From: Modestobacter lapidis
GTDB lineage: Bacteria > Actinomycetota > Actinomycetes > Mycobacteriales > Geodermatophilaceae
Assembly: GCA_019779905.1 (NCBI GenBank)
Contig: JABAKE010000008.1
Coordinates: 1-64,000, forward strand
Reading direction: 5' to 3'
Length of the DNA stretch: 64,000 bases
The notes beneath the pieces were generated by a model. It made no database searches, was not told the DNA's origin, and saw only the letters and a program-made list of their open reading frames with translations. This document shows positions 1,556 to 11,531 of the stretch, one piece after another (the first letter of the stretch is position 1; every line of letters starts with the position of its first letter). A program made the position numbers and the translations under genes.

Positions 1556-1591
1556 CGCCGGCCGGGGAGGGTGATCCCTCCCCGGCCGGCG
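1556..1591. terminator. Bidirectional hairpin terminator
   Basis: Two perfect 16-bp arms (1556-1571 and 1576-1591) surround a TGAT loop. The hairpin sits between the convergent ends of the DUF418-type gene (stop 1528) and the esterase gene (stop 1619). There is no T-tract, as is common in high-GC actinobacteria. Confidence 0.75.
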
Positions 1592-1618
1592 TCGGGCCGG
1601 CGCCGGGCCGGCTCCGGA

Positions 1619-2854
1619 TCAGCCCGCGTCGATCATCCGGGCGACGGTCGAGCCGAGCCGGCCGAAGAGACCGTGGTCGACCCCGGACGGGTACTCGGAG
1701 GTGGCCCGGACGCCCCGGGCCGCGTACCAGCTCTCCCCGGCCCGCGCGCCCCAGGAAGCGGTCAGCGGAACAGCGGTGTCGGCCGTGCCGGTGAACCAGT
1801 GCCCGCGCACTCCGGCCATCCGGTCGGCGCTCACCGCGGAGGAACTGCCCGCCGGCGGGCCGCCGCCGCCGAACACCACCCAGCCACCACCGACCCGCAT
1901 CAGCTCCGGGTGCCGCGGCACCAGGAAGCGGGTGATCTCCTGCGCGCCCGACGAGAAGCCGGCCAGCCAGATCTCACCGATCGGGTAGCTGCCGTACTGC
2001 TGCTCGATCAGGTCGGCGAGGAAGTCGGCGTAGGCGGCGGTGTCGCCGGAGTGCCAGCACTCGCAGGACTGGTTGGGGCTCTCCACGGCCAGGGTGATCA
2101 TGTTGCGGGCCTTGGCGACGGCGACGAGCCCGGACGACCCGCCCAGCGCGTACGAGGCGTTCGGGTTGTCCACGCCGTACTCGCCGGTTCCGTCGACGTA
2201 GACGACCAGGCCCACCGGGCGCGACGGGTCGACGCCGGCGGCGTAGCGGAGGTACTGGCCGCTCTGCCCGTTGGCGGCGGTGAACTTCGTCCGCTGCTGG
2301 TCGGCGAACGATCCGCCCGAGCCGCCGCTGGCGGCACCGGCTGCGGCCGCGGGCGCGGGCGCGGCTGCAGCCGGTGCGCTCGCCGCCGGCGCGCCGGCCG
2401 ACCGCGTGTCGGTCGACCGCGTGTCGGTCGATTGCCGGCCCGACCCGCCCGACCGGCTGCGCGAGCCCTGGTGCTTCGGAGCAGCGGCGTGGGTGCGCAC
2501 CTTGTCCGCGGCCTCGGTGACGGGCTCGGCCGGCGCCTGCTCGGTCGTCGGCTCGGCCACCGGCTCGGTCTCGGCAGTCGGCTCCGGCAAGGTCTCGACC
2601 GGCTCCTCGACCGGCGGAACCGGCGCCGGGGCAGGGGCAGGGGTCTCCTCGACCGGCGGGACGACGGGAACGGCCGGGACCTGCTCGCCGGCTCCGGACG
2701 CGGACTGCGCGCCGGCTTCTGCGGCCACCGGCGCAGCGGCGCCCGCGCCGAGGGCGCTCAGGTCGCCGGGGCCGCAGGCCGCCGTCAATGCGACCAGCGT
2801 CGCGGCGGTGAACACCAGGGCGGGACGCCTGGCCATGGAGAGAGAAGAGCGCAC
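1619..2854 (-). CDS. Lipoprotein alpha/beta-hydrolase (PHB-depolymerase-like esterase)
   Basis: This is a 411-aa exported lipoprotein. The signal peptide ends in the lipobox LTAAC near residue 27. Residues ~30-180 are a low-complexity Ala/Pro/Glu spacer, probably crossing the cell wall, with a short DNA tandem repeat encoding STDTRSTDTRS. The C-terminal half is an alpha/beta-hydrolase resembling the LpqC/poly-3-hydroxybutyrate depolymerase family. It has a nucleophile elbow GFSSGAQ, an acid loop GTADTAVP and a catalytic histidine in VDHG. The natural ester substrate cannot be read from sequence. The gene is transcribed away from the M1 peptidase gene. Confidence 0.8.
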   Translation of the reverse strand: MRSSLSMARRPALVFTAATLVALTAACGPGDLSALGAGAAAPVAAEAGAQSASGAGEQVPAVPVVPPVEETPAPAPAPVPPVEEPVETLPEPTAETEPVAEPTTEQAPAEPVTEAADKVRTHAAAPKHQGSRSRSGGSGRQSTDTRSTDTRSAGAPAASAPAAAAPAPAAAAGAASGGSGGSFADQQRTKFTAANGQSGQYLRYAAGVDPSRPVGLVVYVDGTGEYGVDNPNASYALGGSSGLVAVAKARNMITLAVESPNQSCECWHSGDTAAYADFLADLIEQQYGSYPIGEIWLAGFSSGAQEITRFLVPRHPELMRVGGGWVVFGGGGPPAGSSSAVSADRMAGVRGHWFTGTADTAVPLTASWGARAGESWYAARGVRATSEYPSGVDHGLFGRLGSTVARMIDAG

Positions 2855-5190: not shown

Positions 5191-5595
5191 TCAATCCGGC
5201 AGCTGCAGCACGGGCAGGTCGGTGCGAGGGAAGTCGTCGCCGACACACAGGATCGAATACCCGGTGCGCTCCGCGAGGGCGTAGGTGACGCAATCACCCA
5301 GGTTCAAGGCAGCTGCCGAACGGCCCTTGCCGAAGCGCCGCCATGCGTCCTGGGCGCGGTCGGCCAGCTCCTCGTCGAACGGCACGACCCGCACACCAGC
5401 GTCTCGCAGCGCCCGCCCGGCGATGCCGATCGCCGCCGGCGCGCGGGCCTCCAGCACGATTCCCAGCTCGAGGACGGTCGGGGCAGCAACGATCCGATCG
5501 GGCGCCGCACCGAGCTGGGTCGACAGCCACTGGCCTCCTGGCTCACCGGTCAGGATGGCCACCATCGCCGACGTATCGACGACCAGCGCGGTCAA
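5191..5595 (-). CDS. vapC: VapC PIN-domain ribonuclease toxin
   Basis: This 134-aa PIN domain has the four conserved acidic positions: VVDTSAMV at the N terminus, [17 protein letters not shown] and CVGDDF. VapC toxins cleave tRNA or rRNA using magnesium held by these residues. The start overlaps the vapB stop by four bases (5592-5595), so the toxin is translated only when the antitoxin has been. Length and gene order match classical vapBC pairs, and no key residue is missing. Confidence 0.92.
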
Positions 5596-5840
5596 CCCGG
5601 GAGCCCCGCGGAGTCGTAGCCGACGATCTCCTCCGCGCTGCGTCGATCGACAACCGACATGGCCGCATACTCGGCGGCCAGGCGCGCGAGGCGGGCCGGT
5701 ACGTCATCCTCCTGCGCCCTGACCCGCGCCAATCGCTCCCGGAGGGCCGTGGTGACTGCCGCCGTCAACGTCTCATGAGTGGCGGCAGCGAGCTCCCGGG
5801 CCAGGGCATCAGCTTCCGTCGTCTTGATGCTCAGAGCCAT
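5592..5840 (-). CDS. vapB: VapB antitoxin (PSK family)
   Basis: This 82-aa antitoxin begins [18 protein letters not shown], the usual N-terminal DNA-binding/dimerisation segment of PSK-type VapB proteins. An acidic C-terminal half should wrap the toxin. It is the first gene of the pair and overlaps vapC by four bases. There is no ribosome site. A -10-like TAGAAT (5852-5847 on this strand) lies only six bases before the ATG, which fits a leaderless transcript. Confidence 0.9.
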
Positions 5841-5895: not shown

Positions 5896-6996
5896 TCAGC
5901 GGGTGACGGCGCGCGCCTCGCCCTCGGCGGCCTGCGCGTTGCGGGCCTCGAGCCGCTCCCGCTGCGGGACGACGGTGTACTTCGGGTCGCGGGCGCTGGC
6001 CATGCCGGCGTCGAACACGCCGAAGCGGGTCAGCAGCGAGCCGGCGGCCAGCAGCGCACCGGAGACCACCGCCCCGGCCCGGGTGCGGCCGGCCACCACG
6101 GTCAGCCCGGCGCCGCCGGCGGTGCACGCCTTCGCGGCCTTCATCAGCGTGCCGGCCCGGCCCAGGTGGTACGGCTCGCTGACGATGCCGTGGTCGTGCT
6201 CCACCTTGTGCATCGCCGCCAGCTCGACCGCCGCCCCGGCGACCGCCATCTTCCGCGCCGGACCGGCTTCCGCAACCGGGGTGAACGCCATGCAGATCCC
6301 GCCACCGGCGGCCATGCCGGAGCCGGCGAAGACGAACGGCAGCTCCTTGTACGGCTCGTGCCACGACGGCACCGCGGTGTTCGCCAGCAGCACCGCCGTG
6401 TAGGTGGTCATCGGGCCACCGAAGACGGCCGAGGCCGTGCCCGCGACCTTCCGCAACCCGGGGAACCAGCCGGCGATCCGCCGCAGCCCGAACTTCTGCA
6501 GCCCGGGGAAGGCGTCCAGCAGCTGGATGCCCGCGGTTCCGGCCGCCAGCGCGCTGAACGGCGCCAGGATGTAGGAGCCCACCGACAGCGGGGAGGTCGG
6601 CTTGATCACCCGCAGCATGTGCAGGAAGCGTGCCGGCCGGCCCAGGTCGTGGATCAGCCACGCCACCGACGCCAGCGCACTCCCGCCCGCGGTGTAGTGC
6701 GCGGCCCGGGTCAGCGCCGGGCGACCGGTCACGTCGGCGATCGCGCCGAGCACCGCCGACGTGCCCGCCGCGCCGCCCAGGAACAGGTACAGCGGCACGT
6801 CCGGGGTCTTCCACACCGGCGGCTTGATGATCGGCCGGCCGTAGTAGGAGGTGAACTCGGCCTCCTCGACGGTCGGGTCGCCGTCCCGCGCGCCGCCACG
6901 GCGGCCGCCCCTGCGCCGCTTCTTCTCCCGCGCCTGGGCGGGCGGCCCGTCGGCCCGCCGCCAGCCGGCGCCCGGCGTGGCCAGTCCCTCGGTCAC
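5896..6996 (-). CDS. NrfD-type membrane anchor of formate dehydrogenase
   Basis: This is a 366-aa polytopic protein of the NrfD/polysulfide-reductase family, which anchors molybdoenzyme complexes and passes electrons to menaquinone. After a basic Ala/Arg N-terminal tail comes the conserved GRPIIKPPVWKTPDVPLYLF entry, then about eight to nine hydrophobic helices. The GTG at 6996 is chosen because GGGAGGAG precedes it. An in-frame ATG nine codons upstream lies inside a palindrome and has no ribosome site. It is the last gene of fdhA-fdhB-nrfD. Confidence 0.85.
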   Translation of the reverse strand: MTEGLATPGAGWRRADGPPAQAREKKRRRGGRRGGARDGDPTVEEAEFTSYYGRPIIKPPVWKTPDVPLYLFLGGAAGTSAVLGAIADVTGRPALTRAAHYTAGGSALASVAWLIHDLGRPARFLHMLRVIKPTSPLSVGSYILAPFSALAAGTAGIQLLDAFPGLQKFGLRRIAGWFPGLRKVAGTASAVFGGPMTTYTAVLLANTAVPSWHEPYKELPFVFAGSGMAAGGGICMAFTPVAEAGPARKMAVAGAAVELAAMHKVEHDHGIVSEPYHLGRAGTLMKAAKACTAGGAGLTVVAGRTRAGAVVSGALLAAGSLLTRFGVFDAGMASARDPKYTVVPQRERLEARNAQAAEGEARAVTR

Positions 6997-7008
6997 AGCT
7001 GCTCCTCC

Positions 7009-7030
7009 CACCAAAATGGCCATTTTGGTG
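7009..7030. repeat. 22-bp perfect palindrome between fdhB and nrfD
   Basis: The sequence is fully self-complementary about a GGCC centre, with AAAAT/ATTTT arms that stand out as AT-rich here. It fills most of the 46-base gap between the fdhB stop and the nrfD start and could form a hairpin that tunes nrfD translation or processes the transcript. Confidence 0.7.
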
Positions 7031-7042
7031 CTTCGGGGAGGG

Positions 7043-8146
7043 TCATCGGCGCAGCCCCTTCCTGGACCCGAGGATCGCGGAGAGCGCGACCCCGACCACC
7101 ATGACCGCCCCGCCCACCGCGTGCTTCCACATCGACGGCAGGTCGCGGGTGGTGACGATCGGGTCCGGCGGCAGCCCGTAGACCTCCGGCTCGTCGAGTA
7201 GCAGAAAGAACGCCCCCGCGCCGCCCACGCCGTCGTCCTCGTCCCGCCCGTAGAGCCGGGCGGTCTCCACCCCCTGCTCCTTGAGCGTGGCCAGCCGGGC
7301 GTCGGCCCGGGCCTGCAGCTCGTCCAGGTCGCCGAACTGGATCGACTGGGTGGGGCAGGCGGTCGCGCAGGCCGGCTGCAGCCCGTCGGTGAGCCGGTCG
7401 TAGCACATCGTGCACTTGAAGACCCGGCCGTCGTCCTTGCGCTGGTCGATGACGCCGTAGGGGCAGGCCGGGACGCAGTAGCCGCACCCGTTGCAGATGT
7501 CCTGCTGCACCACGACGGTGCCGAACTCGGTGCGGAACAGCGCACCGGTGGGGCAGACGTCCAGGCAGGCGGCGTGCGTGCAGTGCTTGCAGACGTCGGA
7601 GGACATCAGCCAGCGGATCTCCCGGTCGGCCGAGTGACCGGTCTGCGGGTCGAACTCGCTGAGCGCCTCGACGTTGAGCACGCTGGCCTGCGCGGTCAGC
7701 CCGCCGTCGGCGTTCCCGCCGTGCGACGTGGCGTGCGCGTCACCCGGAGCCTGACTCTCGCCGTGCCGGCCGGCACCCTCGGCGCCCGCACCCGGCAACC
7801 CGACCGTCGGCATCGGCAGGTCGACCGCCCGGCTCTGCTCGACGAACGCCACGTGCCGCCAGGAGTTGGCCCCGAGCATCCCGGTGTTGTCGTAGGACAT
7901 CCCCGACAGGCCCATGGCGTCCCGGTTGCCGTCCGCGTCGTCCATCGGGAGGGTGTTCCACTCCTTGCAGGCCACCTCGCAGGCCTTGCACCCGATGCAC
8001 ACCGAGGTGTCGGTGAAGAAGCCGACCCGGGCCGGGTGGTCCTCGGCGTACCCGGCCTCCCCGCTCACGTCCGGCAACGGGCCGTAGAGCCGGTTGGCCG
8101 GGTCGTTCCCGGTGAGCGCCGGGCTGGCCGAGCTGACGGTGGTCAC
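7043..8146 (-). CDS. fdhB: Formate dehydrogenase iron-sulfur subunit
   Basis: This 367-aa protein has four cysteine motifs for four [4Fe-4S] clusters: CIGCKACEVACKEWN, CKHCTHAACLDVCP, CNGCGYCVPACP and CTMCYDRLTDGLQPACATACP. It ends in one hydrophobic helix (AVGGAVMVVGVALSAIL), like the FdnH/FdoH single transmembrane anchor. It carries electrons from the FdhA molybdenum site to the membrane subunit. The GTG start follows GGAGGAG 31 bases after fdhA. A ~60-residue His/Gly-rich insertion lies between the first and second motifs. Confidence 0.93.
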   Translation of the reverse strand: MTTVSSASPALTGNDPANRLYGPLPDVSGEAGYAEDHPARVGFFTDTSVCIGCKACEVACKEWNTLPMDDADGNRDAMGLSGMSYDNTGMLGANSWRHVAFVEQSRAVDLPMPTVGLPGAGAEGAGRHGESQAPGDAHATSHGGNADGGLTAQASVLNVEALSEFDPQTGHSADREIRWLMSSDVCKHCTHAACLDVCPTGALFRTEFGTVVVQQDICNGCGYCVPACPYGVIDQRKDDGRVFKCTMCYDRLTDGLQPACATACPTQSIQFGDLDELQARADARLATLKEQGVETARLYGRDEDDGVGGAGAFFLLLDEPEVYGLPPDPIVTTRDLPSMWKHAVGGAVMVVGVALSAILGSRKGLRR

Positions 8147-8177: not shown

Positions 8178-11100
8178 TCAGGTCTTCCCCTCCACCGGCG
8201 CGCGGCCGCCGGTCGGGATCAGACCCGACGGCACACCTGCCCGCAGCCGGTGCTCCTCCACGAACTGCACCAGCGCCTTGCCGCGCGGACGGCGCCCGGG
8301 CTGGATGTCGCAGGTGGCCACCTTGGTCTCCTGGATGTGCACGTTCGGGTCCATCACCACCCCGAACAGGTCGTTCCCGGAGTCGCCGGTGGACAGCCCC
8401 TGCTCACCCCAGTGGTACGGGATGCCGATCTGGTGCACGATCTGCCCGCCCTTGAGCCGCAACGGCCGGATCCGCTCGGTGACCAGCACCTTCGCCTCGA
8501 TCGCGGTACGCGCGCTGACCAGCGTCGCCCAGCCACCGTTCTCCAGCCCGCGCTCCTCGGCCAGCTGCGGGCTGACCTCGACGAAGAACTCCGGCTGCAG
8601 CTCGGACAGGTAGGGCAGCGTGCGGCTCATCCCGCCGGCGGTGTGGTGCTCGGTGAGCCGGTAGGTGGTCATCGCGTAGGGGTAGACGTCGCTGCGCGGC
8701 GGGTTGCCCCGGTTCCACGGAGCCTGGATCTCCTCCCGCCCCGGGTTGGCCTGCTGGCCGTACAGGGCGTTCGCCACCGGCGACTCGGCCGGCTCGTAGT
8801 GCGCCGGCATCGGCCCGTCGGCCAGCCCGGCCGGCACGTAGAGCCAGGCCTTCCCGTCGGCCTGCATGACGAACGGGTCCGTTCCGCCCAGGCCGGCCTC
8901 GGCGACCGCGCCGTCCGGCGGCACGTAGTCGGGCCGCTTGGTCGCCTCGAAGTCGGGGACGTCATGACCGACCCAGCGGCCGGTTCCGTCCTCACCTGCC
9001 TCCTCGTCCCACCAGACGTAGGCCTTGCGCTCGCTCCACGGCTTGCCGTCCGGGTCGGCGGACGCGCGGTTGTACAGCGTGCGGCGGTTGGCCGGCCAGG
9101 CCCAGCCCCACTCGGCGGCCACCCAGTCCTGCTCGCGACCGGGCTTGCGGCGGGCCGACTGGTTGACCTCGTCGGCGTAGACACCGGTGTAGATCCAGCA
9201 GCCGCCGCTGGTGGAGCCGTCGTCCTTCATGTCCAGGTAGCTCGACAGCGCCCTACCGTCCGGGCCGACGCCGTTGATCTCGCGCAGCACCGCCTCGGCG
9301 CTGGGGTCCTCGGTCTCCCCGTGCGTCGGGTAGTCCCAGGTGAGGTCCAGCAGCGGACGGTCCCGCGGGTCGGTGGAGCCGGCCAGCTTCTCCCGGAGCC
9401 GCCGCCCGAGGTGGTAGTAGAACCACAGGTCGCTGCGGCTGTCGGCCGGCGGCTCGACCGCCTTGTGCCGCCACTGCAGCAGCCGCTGGGTCTGGGTGAA
9501 GGTGCCCTCCTTCTCCACGTGCGTGGCCGCGGGCATGAAGAAGACCTCGGTGGCGATGTCCTCGGTGACCAGTTCCCCGGTCTCGATCTCCGGGGCGGTC
9601 TTCCAGAACGTCGCCGACTCGATCATCTGCAGATCGCGGACGACGAGCCACTCCAGGTTGGCCAGGCCGAAGCGCTGCATGCGCCCGTTGGCGCTGCCCA
9701 CCGCCGGGTTCTCGCCCACCAGGAAGTAGCCGGGCACCTTCCCCTGGATCATGTCGGCGACGGTGGTGTACGTGCCGTGGTCGCCGGTCAGCCGGGGCAG
9801 GTAGTCGAAGGCGAAGTCGTTCCCCGGTTGCGCCGCGTCGCCCCACCAGGCCTTGAGCAGGCTGACGGTGTACGAGCGCATGTTGCCCCAGAAGCCGACC
9901 CGGTCGTCGCTGGAGGCGCAGAAGCTGTCCAGGTCGGTGTGCTGCTGGGCGTGGGGCATCGGGATGTAGCCGGGCAGGATGTTGAACAGCGTCGGGATGT
10001 CGGTGGAGCCCTGGATGCTGGCGTGACCGCGCAGCGCCAGGATCCCGCCGCCGGGCCGGCCCATGTTGCCCAGCAGCGCCTGCAGGATCGACGCCGTCCG
10101 GATGTACTGCACGCCCACCGTGTGGTGCGTCCAGCCCACCGAGTAGACCCACGCCGTCGTCCGGTCGCGGTTGCTGTTCGCGGTGACCCACTCGGCGACC
10201 TTGAGGAACACCTCGGGCTCGATGCCGCAGATGTCGGCGACCATCTCCGGGGTGTAGCGGGCGTAGTGCCGCTTGAGCACCTGGAAGACGCAGCGCGGGT
10301 GCTGCAGCGTCTCGTCCCGCTGCGGCTTGCCGTGTATGTCGGCCGAGCCCTGGGCGCCCTGCTGCTGGTCGGCCTCCTTGACGCCCTCGGTCTCGTCGTC
10401 GGATCCGTCGTTCGCGGTGCCGTCGTTCGCGGCGTCGTCGGGCCGGTCGCCCTCGTCGTCGGTGCGGAAGGCCGACCCGCCCGGCAGGCTCGGGGAGCGC
10501 TGACCGGCCGAGGAGGGCACGTTGACGCCCTCGTACTGCCAGCTGGTCTCGTCGTACTGCCCGGTCTCCGGGTCGAAGCCGGAGAACAGGCCGTCGAGAT
10601 CCTCGGTGTCCTGGAAGTCCTCACGCAGGATCGCCGCCGCGTTGGTGTAGGCGACCACGTACTCGCGGAAGTCCAGGTCGTTGTCCAGGACGTACTTGAT
10701 CAGCCCACCGAGGAACGCGATGTCGGTGCCCGCGCGCAGCGGCACGTGCAGGTCGGCCAGCGCGCTGGTCCGGGTGAACCGCGGGTCGATGTGGATGACC
10801 TTCGCGCCCCGCGCCTTGGCCTCCATCACCCACTGGAATCCCACCGGGTGGCACTCGGCCATGTTGGAACCCTCGATGACGATGCAGTCGGAGTTCACCA
10901 GGTCCTGCTGGAAGTTCGTGGCGCCGCCACGACCGAACGAGGTCCCCAGACCGGGGACCGTGGCGGAGTGCTATATGCGGGCCTGGTTCTCGATCTGGAT
11001 CGCGCCCATGGCGCTGTAGAGCTTCTTCATGAGGTAGTTCTCCTCGTTGTCGAGGGTCGCCCCTCCGAGGCTCGCTATCCCCAGCGTGCGGTTGACCTGC

Positions 11101-11531
11101 TTCCCCTCGTGCTCGTCCTGCCAGCCCTTGCGGCGGGCATCGAGCACGCGGTCGGCGATCATGTCCATCGCCGTGTCGAGGTCGAGGTCCTCCCACTCCG
11201 TCCCGTGCGGGCGGCGGTACTTGACCGTGGTGACCCGGGTGGGGCTCGTGACCAGTTGCTTGCTCGCGCTGCCCTTCGGGCACAGCCGGCCACGGCTGAT
11301 CGGGGAGTCGGGGTCGCCCTCGATCTGGACGACCTGCTCGTCCTTCACGAACACCCGCTGCCCGCAGCCGACCGCGCAGTACGGGCAGACCGACTGCACG
11401 ACCCGGTCGGCCGTCGCGGTGCGGCTGACCACCGCCTCGGTCGCCTTGCTGCGGGCCGCCTTGCCGCGACCGAGCGGATCGTCCCCAGTGAGCTGCCGGA
11501 ACACCGGCCACGCATCCAGCCACGTCTTCAC
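8178..11531 (-). CDS. fdhA: Formate dehydrogenase catalytic subunit, selenocysteine at an in-frame UAG
   Basis: The gene reads as 1117 residues if the TAG at 10973-10971 is decoded. The first part (11531 to the TAG) ends GAIQIENQARI. After the TAG the frame continues HSATVPGLGTSFGRGG, exactly the sequence that follows the active-site selenocysteine or cysteine in formate dehydrogenases, so the TAG is residue 187. The N-terminal cluster motif is CPYCAVGCG...LCPKG. The rest spans the bis-MGD molybdopterin domains, with an Asp-rich insertion at ~350-400. A SECIS-like hairpin follows the TAG. No twin-arginine signal is visible. UAG-decoding tRNA-Sec is reported for Geodermatophilus and Blastococcus. 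The GTG at 11531 lacks a strong ribosome site and is a best guess. A pseudogene is the less likely alternative. Confidence 0.9.
10924..10966 (-). promoter_or_regulatory. SECIS-like element in fdhA mRNA
   Basis: Four bases after the UAG the message forms an outer stem CCGCCACG/CGTGGCGG (10966-10959 with 10931-10924). An apical stem GGTCCCC/GGGGACC (10959-10953 with 10947-10941) is closed by the loop GGUCU; the base at 10959 can pair in either stem. The loop starts 18 bases after the UAG, within the usual bacterial range. GGUCU is the apical loop of the E. coli fdhF SECIS, where SelB binds. Confidence 0.8.

Follow-up and report, generated by a model that had tools for sequence, protein, structure and literature searches.

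The in-frame UAG at codon 187 of fdhA in the genome of Modestobacter lapidis is, on the combined sequence data, almost certainly decoded as selenocysteine (Sec). The gene lies in the window, that is, the whole 64,000-nt stretch of DNA that was analysed, and this reading is supported by the codon itself, a tRNA-Sec with anticodon CUA, the sel genes, a conserved hairpin and the agreement of codon and anticodon across the family Geodermatophilaceae.

With TAG translated as a residue, the fdhA frame contained one internal stop only, the TAG at residue 187, which was read directly on the reverse strand in the context CAG GCC CGC ATA TAG CAC TCC GCC ACG (Table 1). The peptides ENQARI and HSATVPGLG, given as the flanks of this codon by an earlier reading made from the sequence alone (the sequence-only reading), both matched the translation, and so did its residue number. 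Formate dehydrogenase sequence on either side of the TAG, also claimed there, was borne out by a match to the NCBIfam family NF041513 (actinobacterial formate dehydrogenase) that spans residues 4–1095 and scores 1956 bits at a cut-off of 1400, which makes the protein a member of that family; the Pfam domains Molybdop_Fe4S4, Molybdopterin, and Molydop_binding were found as well. Two further subunits are encoded downstream of fdhA on the same strand, one of the 4Fe-4S type and one an NrfD-like membrane protein. Adjoining the fdh genes is also a VapBC-like pair, consisting of a PIN-domain gene (window positions 5191–5840, reverse strand) and an Rv0623-like gene before it.

Table 1. Positions in the window of fdhA, its recoded codon and the accompanying features.
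Feature	Position	Strand	Remarks
fdhA, formate dehydrogenase catalytic subunit	8178..11531	-	1117 aa with UAG as a residue; GTG start putative; NF041513
In-frame TAG, residue 187	10971..10973	-	Inferred Sec codon
ATA (Ile186)	10974..10976	-	Codon 5′ of the TAG
SECIS-like 7-bp hairpin	10941..10959	-	GGUCCCC-GGUCU-GGGGACC; begins 11 nt past the UAG
fdhB-like 4Fe-4S subunit	7043..8146	-	TIGR01582 best match, below its cut-off
ORF with NrfD-like membrane subunit	5896..7545	-	Pfam match at about 6289-6816; start uncertain

A scan of named genomes with fdhA gave at least 597 stretches from at least 590 relatives, and the best 80 of these relatives were analysed. At codon 187 they carried TGA in 54 cases, TAG in 26, and a sense codon in none, showing that the TAG sits exactly at the Sec site, as had been proposed. 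By name, the TAG rows belonged to Modestobacter, Geodermatophilus, Blastococcus, Klenkia, and one Frankiales bacterium MAG (L016), and the TGA rows to other actinobacterial names; the closest named relatives among the matches listed were five Modestobacter records with 90–94% identity. Within Geodermatophilaceae, 98 of 112 genomes gave an fdhA row in which a TAG lies over codon 187, a tally from a hand-copied row list, and the exact codon was confirmed as TAG in 30/30 family loci and then in 20/20, divergent copies included. The recoding, described by the sequence-only reading as rare, may therefore be so among bacteria, but within this family it is not. Chance and a sequencing error were considered as the source of the TAG and rejected, since the same codon is TAG in other genomes. 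As for irregular loci, the fdhA pieces on contigs C4 and C12 of genome G080 (L217) are both missing the region that surrounds the Sec codon, owing to a deletion or an assembly problem, and an additional TGA occurs in the fdhA rows from both G062 and G052.

The hairpin that follows the UAG, whose loop we presume to resemble that of the E. coli fdhF SECIS, was assayed in an alignment of 32 sequences (18 with TAG, the window included, and 14 with TGA; 31 distinct), hand-picked from the window and 110 fdhA loci. Paired bases occupied 95.9% of the cells vs. 31–60% with slid partners, and 17 cells were changed on both sides, which was reached in 0/500 shuffles. In detail, pair 18:30 occurred as CG, GU, UA, GC, and UG, while pair 15:33 was broken in 9 of the 31 distinct rows; four of the seven pairs are invariant and so uninformative on covariation, and two of the five measures were not clearly beyond the shuffles (157/500 and 77/500). 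The family locus L404, reading CCG-GGT-CTC, shows a compensatory exchange of the top pair from C-G to G-C. Synonymous conservation was then evaluated over the loci of the best 80 of at least 590 relatives, at the 310 positions where one residue with four or six codons fills at least 90% of the rows. Codon entropy was below 0.1 bit only at CCC193 and CTG195, both within the hairpin and both identical in 80/80 loci; at codon 194, the same 80 loci had 71 GGT and 9 AGT. The element downstream of the UAG thus qualifies as a SECIS hairpin, though single-sequence folds alone are weak, being mildly better than shuffles at four cuts (z of -2.49, -1.19, -1.78, and -2.15).

The tRNA-Sec and sel genes that the sequence-only reading proposed to look for elsewhere in the genome, a draft of 383 contigs given as 100% complete, were both found, so that its claim withstood these sequence-based checks. 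Six matches were obtained with the Rfam tRNA-Sec model, of which one exceeded 60 bits (67.7) and carries the anticodon CUA; the five weaker ones (33.9–48.2 bits) are three tRNA-Ser, a tRNA-Tyr, and a tRNA-Leu according to ARAGORN, with one tRNA-Ser at 48.2 bits marginally above the Rfam cut-off of 47. The CUA gene is accordingly the sole tRNA-Sec among the six, and no UGA-reading one was present among them in this 383-contig draft. It is bordered by the selA-selB pair and, at its other end, by selD, all three above their NCBIfam cut-offs: selA with 426.4 bits (cut-off 267.9), selB with 278.1 (242.25), and selD with 386.5 (125). The C-terminal SelB winged helix is present, and one SelB above the cut-off was found in the genome.

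In the bacterial Sec pathway, SerRS charges tRNA-Sec with Ser, which SelA converts to Sec using selenophosphate supplied by SelD, and SelB carries the Sec-tRNA to the ribosome on binding a hairpin just after the codon. Because the tRNA-Sec anticodon is CUA, the Sec codon here is UAG. The CUA tRNA would be charged by SerRS, SelA, and SelD and delivered by SelB at the fdhA hairpin, so that UAG would be read as Sec and the FdhA protein would contain Sec at residue 187. Elsewhere UAG would still terminate genes; it ends 4 of 40 genes in a crude gene set, so the recoding looks context-dependent.

That UAG terminates just those 4/40 genes would also suit near-cognate or general amber suppression inserting an ordinary residue, e.g., Cys, Ser, or Gln. 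Such suppression is nevertheless very improbable here, given that a CUA tRNA-Sec, SelB, and a conserved hairpin all exist and that codon 187 is a Sec-type stop in 80/80 of the best 80 of at least 590 named relatives. Decoding as pyrrolysine has a smaller chance yet: ARAGORN labels the CUA tRNA as tRNA-Pyl on this anticodon, but the 67.7-bit tRNA-Sec match was the sole above-cut-off Rfam match reported at the locus, the tRNA body is close to the UCA tRNA-Sec of other family genera, the gene sits among sel genes, and TGA occupies codon 187 in 54 of the best 80 (of at least 590) named relatives. The view that UAG is a true stop, leaving fdhA truncated or a pseudogene, is just as hard to credit, as the stop does interrupt the frame but the frame is intact on either side with more than 900 codons past the TAG, TAG recurs in 98/112 family genomes, and synonymous conservation just 3′ of it is strong.

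Decoding of UAG as Sec was further placed in the context of the family by reading the anticodon of every listed tRNA-Sec match above 60 bits in 112 Geodermatophilaceae genomes. A CUA tRNA-Sec was present in 101 of the 112 genomes, UCA alone in seven (genera g6, g7, and g8; 190–550 contigs each), and CUA together with UCA in one, G059, which is included in the 101; tRNA-Sec above 60 bits was absent from G068, G072, G097, and G098, which are 72–82% complete. Among the 98 genomes with a TAG fdhA row, 96 have a CUA tRNA-Sec, the others being G097 and G098 (72% and 80% complete, respectively). Relative to the UCA tRNAs of the family, the CUA tRNAs have the anticodon loop CUCUAAA in place of CUUCAAA and, in a neighbouring stem pair, C-G in place of U-A. 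A quick tree was built from 52 SelA rows out of 80 loci (more than 300 residues matched, no stop, two duplicates removed). Its 32 CUA rows all formed one side of a branch with an SH-aLRT of 100, so a single origin of CUA is compatible with the tree; the picture is not a simple one, however, as the four UCA family rows fell among the outgroup, away from those with CUA, and the outgroup did not itself form one side of a branch. We infer that codon and anticodon probably switched together, from UGA/UCA to UAG/CUA, once in the family.

Outside the family, 43 tRNA-Sec-like loci (the best 30 plus 13 hand-picked) carried UCA in 42 cases and ACA in one. The latter is a second tRNA-Sec-like gene of G386, a genome of another family in the same class, with 66.8 bits (L382, 4034–4127, forward strand), directly followed by an ORF that was labelled selB-like by eye. 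It would read the Cys codon UGU, and a UCA tRNA-Sec is present in G386 too. A UGU-Sec case is described for Aeromonas salmonicida (PMC10778597).

The codon preceding the fdhA TAG was ATA at all 26 named TAG loci of the best 80 of at least 590 relatives, and in the family at 30/30 loci (L117–L146) and 20/20 loci (L395–L414). The named and family sets share genomes, and the 20 later loci include nine divergent fdhA copies, whose aligned pieces are 61–77% identical to the query. Before TGA, at the 54 loci of the same best 80, the codon was ATT in 37, GTT in 10, ATA in 6, and ATC in 1. At all other positions of the aligned named genes, Ile (n = 3116) was encoded by ATC 3040, ATT 40, and ATA 36 times, while in the window's own fdhA ATA is less rare, with 3 of 39 Ile codons including Ile186. 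At UGSC loci the TAG was preceded by GAT (13/22) or GAC (9/22), GAT making up 26 of 367 nearby Asp codons, and in the AhpD-like families by TAC (15/15). The ATA-TAG context of fdhA is not shared by these other UAG families. From the codon counts, keeping so scarce a codon before UAG would be hard to square with descent alone.

Other UAG-Sec gene families were also found in Geodermatophilaceae. UGSC (NF041046) had matches in 54 of 112 genomes, with TAG in 48 and TGA rows in none; in 30 fetched loci, the U position of the motif was TAG in 22 and the Cys codon TGC in 8. In six genomes, none of the UGSC matches contained a stop (G031, G032, G061, G067, G073, and G108), and a motif search gave no UGSC-type motif in four of the six. 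AhpD-related CFYU proteins (NF041238) carried TAG at the Sec site in 6/112 genomes (L234–L239), and a CMD-domain protein with C[HF]Y-TAG occurred in 9/112 (L383–L391), its gene adjoining tRNA-Sec by coordinates in G093, G057, G058, and G065. In the window's genome, UGSC gave 0 matches, the C[HF]YU family 0 matches at E 1e-12, the AhpD-related family one match with no stop, and AhpC-TSA four matches, none with a stop; that these families yielded no second UAG-Sec gene there is a point against the Sec reading. Of single rows, the TGA of the G061 AhpD-like match looks terminal on its reading frame, and a weak row of G104 in the C[HF]YU search contains a TGA.

The genome with both anticodons, G059, has a CUA tRNA-Sec with adjoining sel genes, a TAG fdhA, a TAG UGSC gene, and one SelB above the cut-off. 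Its second tRNA-Sec (UCA, 81.8 bits; L147, 1169–1263, reverse strand) is very unlike the CUA one and lies about 300 bp from an AhpD-like frame (L147, about 1582–2157, forward strand) that has TGA at CxxU and scores above the TIGR01926 cut-off; a second TGA in the translated stretch is probably the real end. This UCA locus occupies the left terminus of contig C17, where GC is lower and transposase-like ORFs (named by eye) are present. At 42–48 kb, 6 kb of C17 aligned near full length, at 75–77%, to G023, G001, and G003, so the contig belongs to the family there, while its end may be chimeric. Folding after the TGA was no better than shuffles (z of 0.22 and -0.47), giving no convincing hairpin there, which counts against a dual code. 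Relatives of the UGA gene product (P0002) were absent from 394 class genomes at E 1e-25, a search with no known positive and so uninformative, as well as from plasmids at E 1e-20 and from viral contigs. A tentative proposal that we hold to be rather doubtful is a family-wide UAG-Sec code with an obligate AUA before the fdhA UAG, to which G059 would have added a UGA-reading tRNA-Sec of foreign origin close to a UGA selenoprotein gene; a single cell, in which one SelB was found, would then read both UAG and UGA as Sec.

A UAG-decoding tRNA-Sec was reportedly described in Geodermatophilus and Blastococcus by Mukai et al. in 2016, as the sequence-only reading stated; here, the closest named relatives listed are Modestobacter. 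That the variant was already published for Geodermatophilaceae was confirmed from the available part of the Secmarker survey (PMC5330540), which gives three tRNA-Sec with CUA in this family and Sec-TAG in FDH, UGSC, and one AhpC selenoprotein. The system described by Mukai et al. and the one here are alike in the CUA tRNA-Sec and in an FDH whose Sec site is encoded by UAG (PMC5330540). Unlike in the known system, no UGSC gene was found in the window's genome. Beyond the three CUA tRNA-Sec and the FDH, UGSC, and AhpC families named in that part of the survey (PMC5330540), the present data add CUA in 101/112 family genomes, two AhpD-like UAG families (NF041238 and C[HF]Y-TAG), the CUA and UCA tRNAs of G059, and the AUA before the fdhA UAG. 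No paper pairing Modestobacter with selenocysteine was found in a search whose coverage leaves out most subscription papers, and none on a CUA and UCA genome or the AUA-UAG context was among the matches listed.

The UGA-Sec FDH of other actinobacteria shares the enzyme, the site, and the hairpin with the window's fdhA, but has a TGA codon preceded mostly by ATT, whereas every TAG locus read has ATA. Annotation that knows only UGA-Sec probably truncates such enzymes, and ARAGORN gives the CUA tRNA of this genome as pyrrolysine-specific. Since UCA-only genera and one dual-tRNA genome share the family with the CUA genomes, the steps of the codon reassignment are testable. The UAG-Sec fdhA of Modestobacter lapidis is a further case of the variant known since 2016–2017 in the same family, and the data support that a non-canonical amino acid has moved naturally to another codon, as seen in 101/112 genomes of a single bacterial family.
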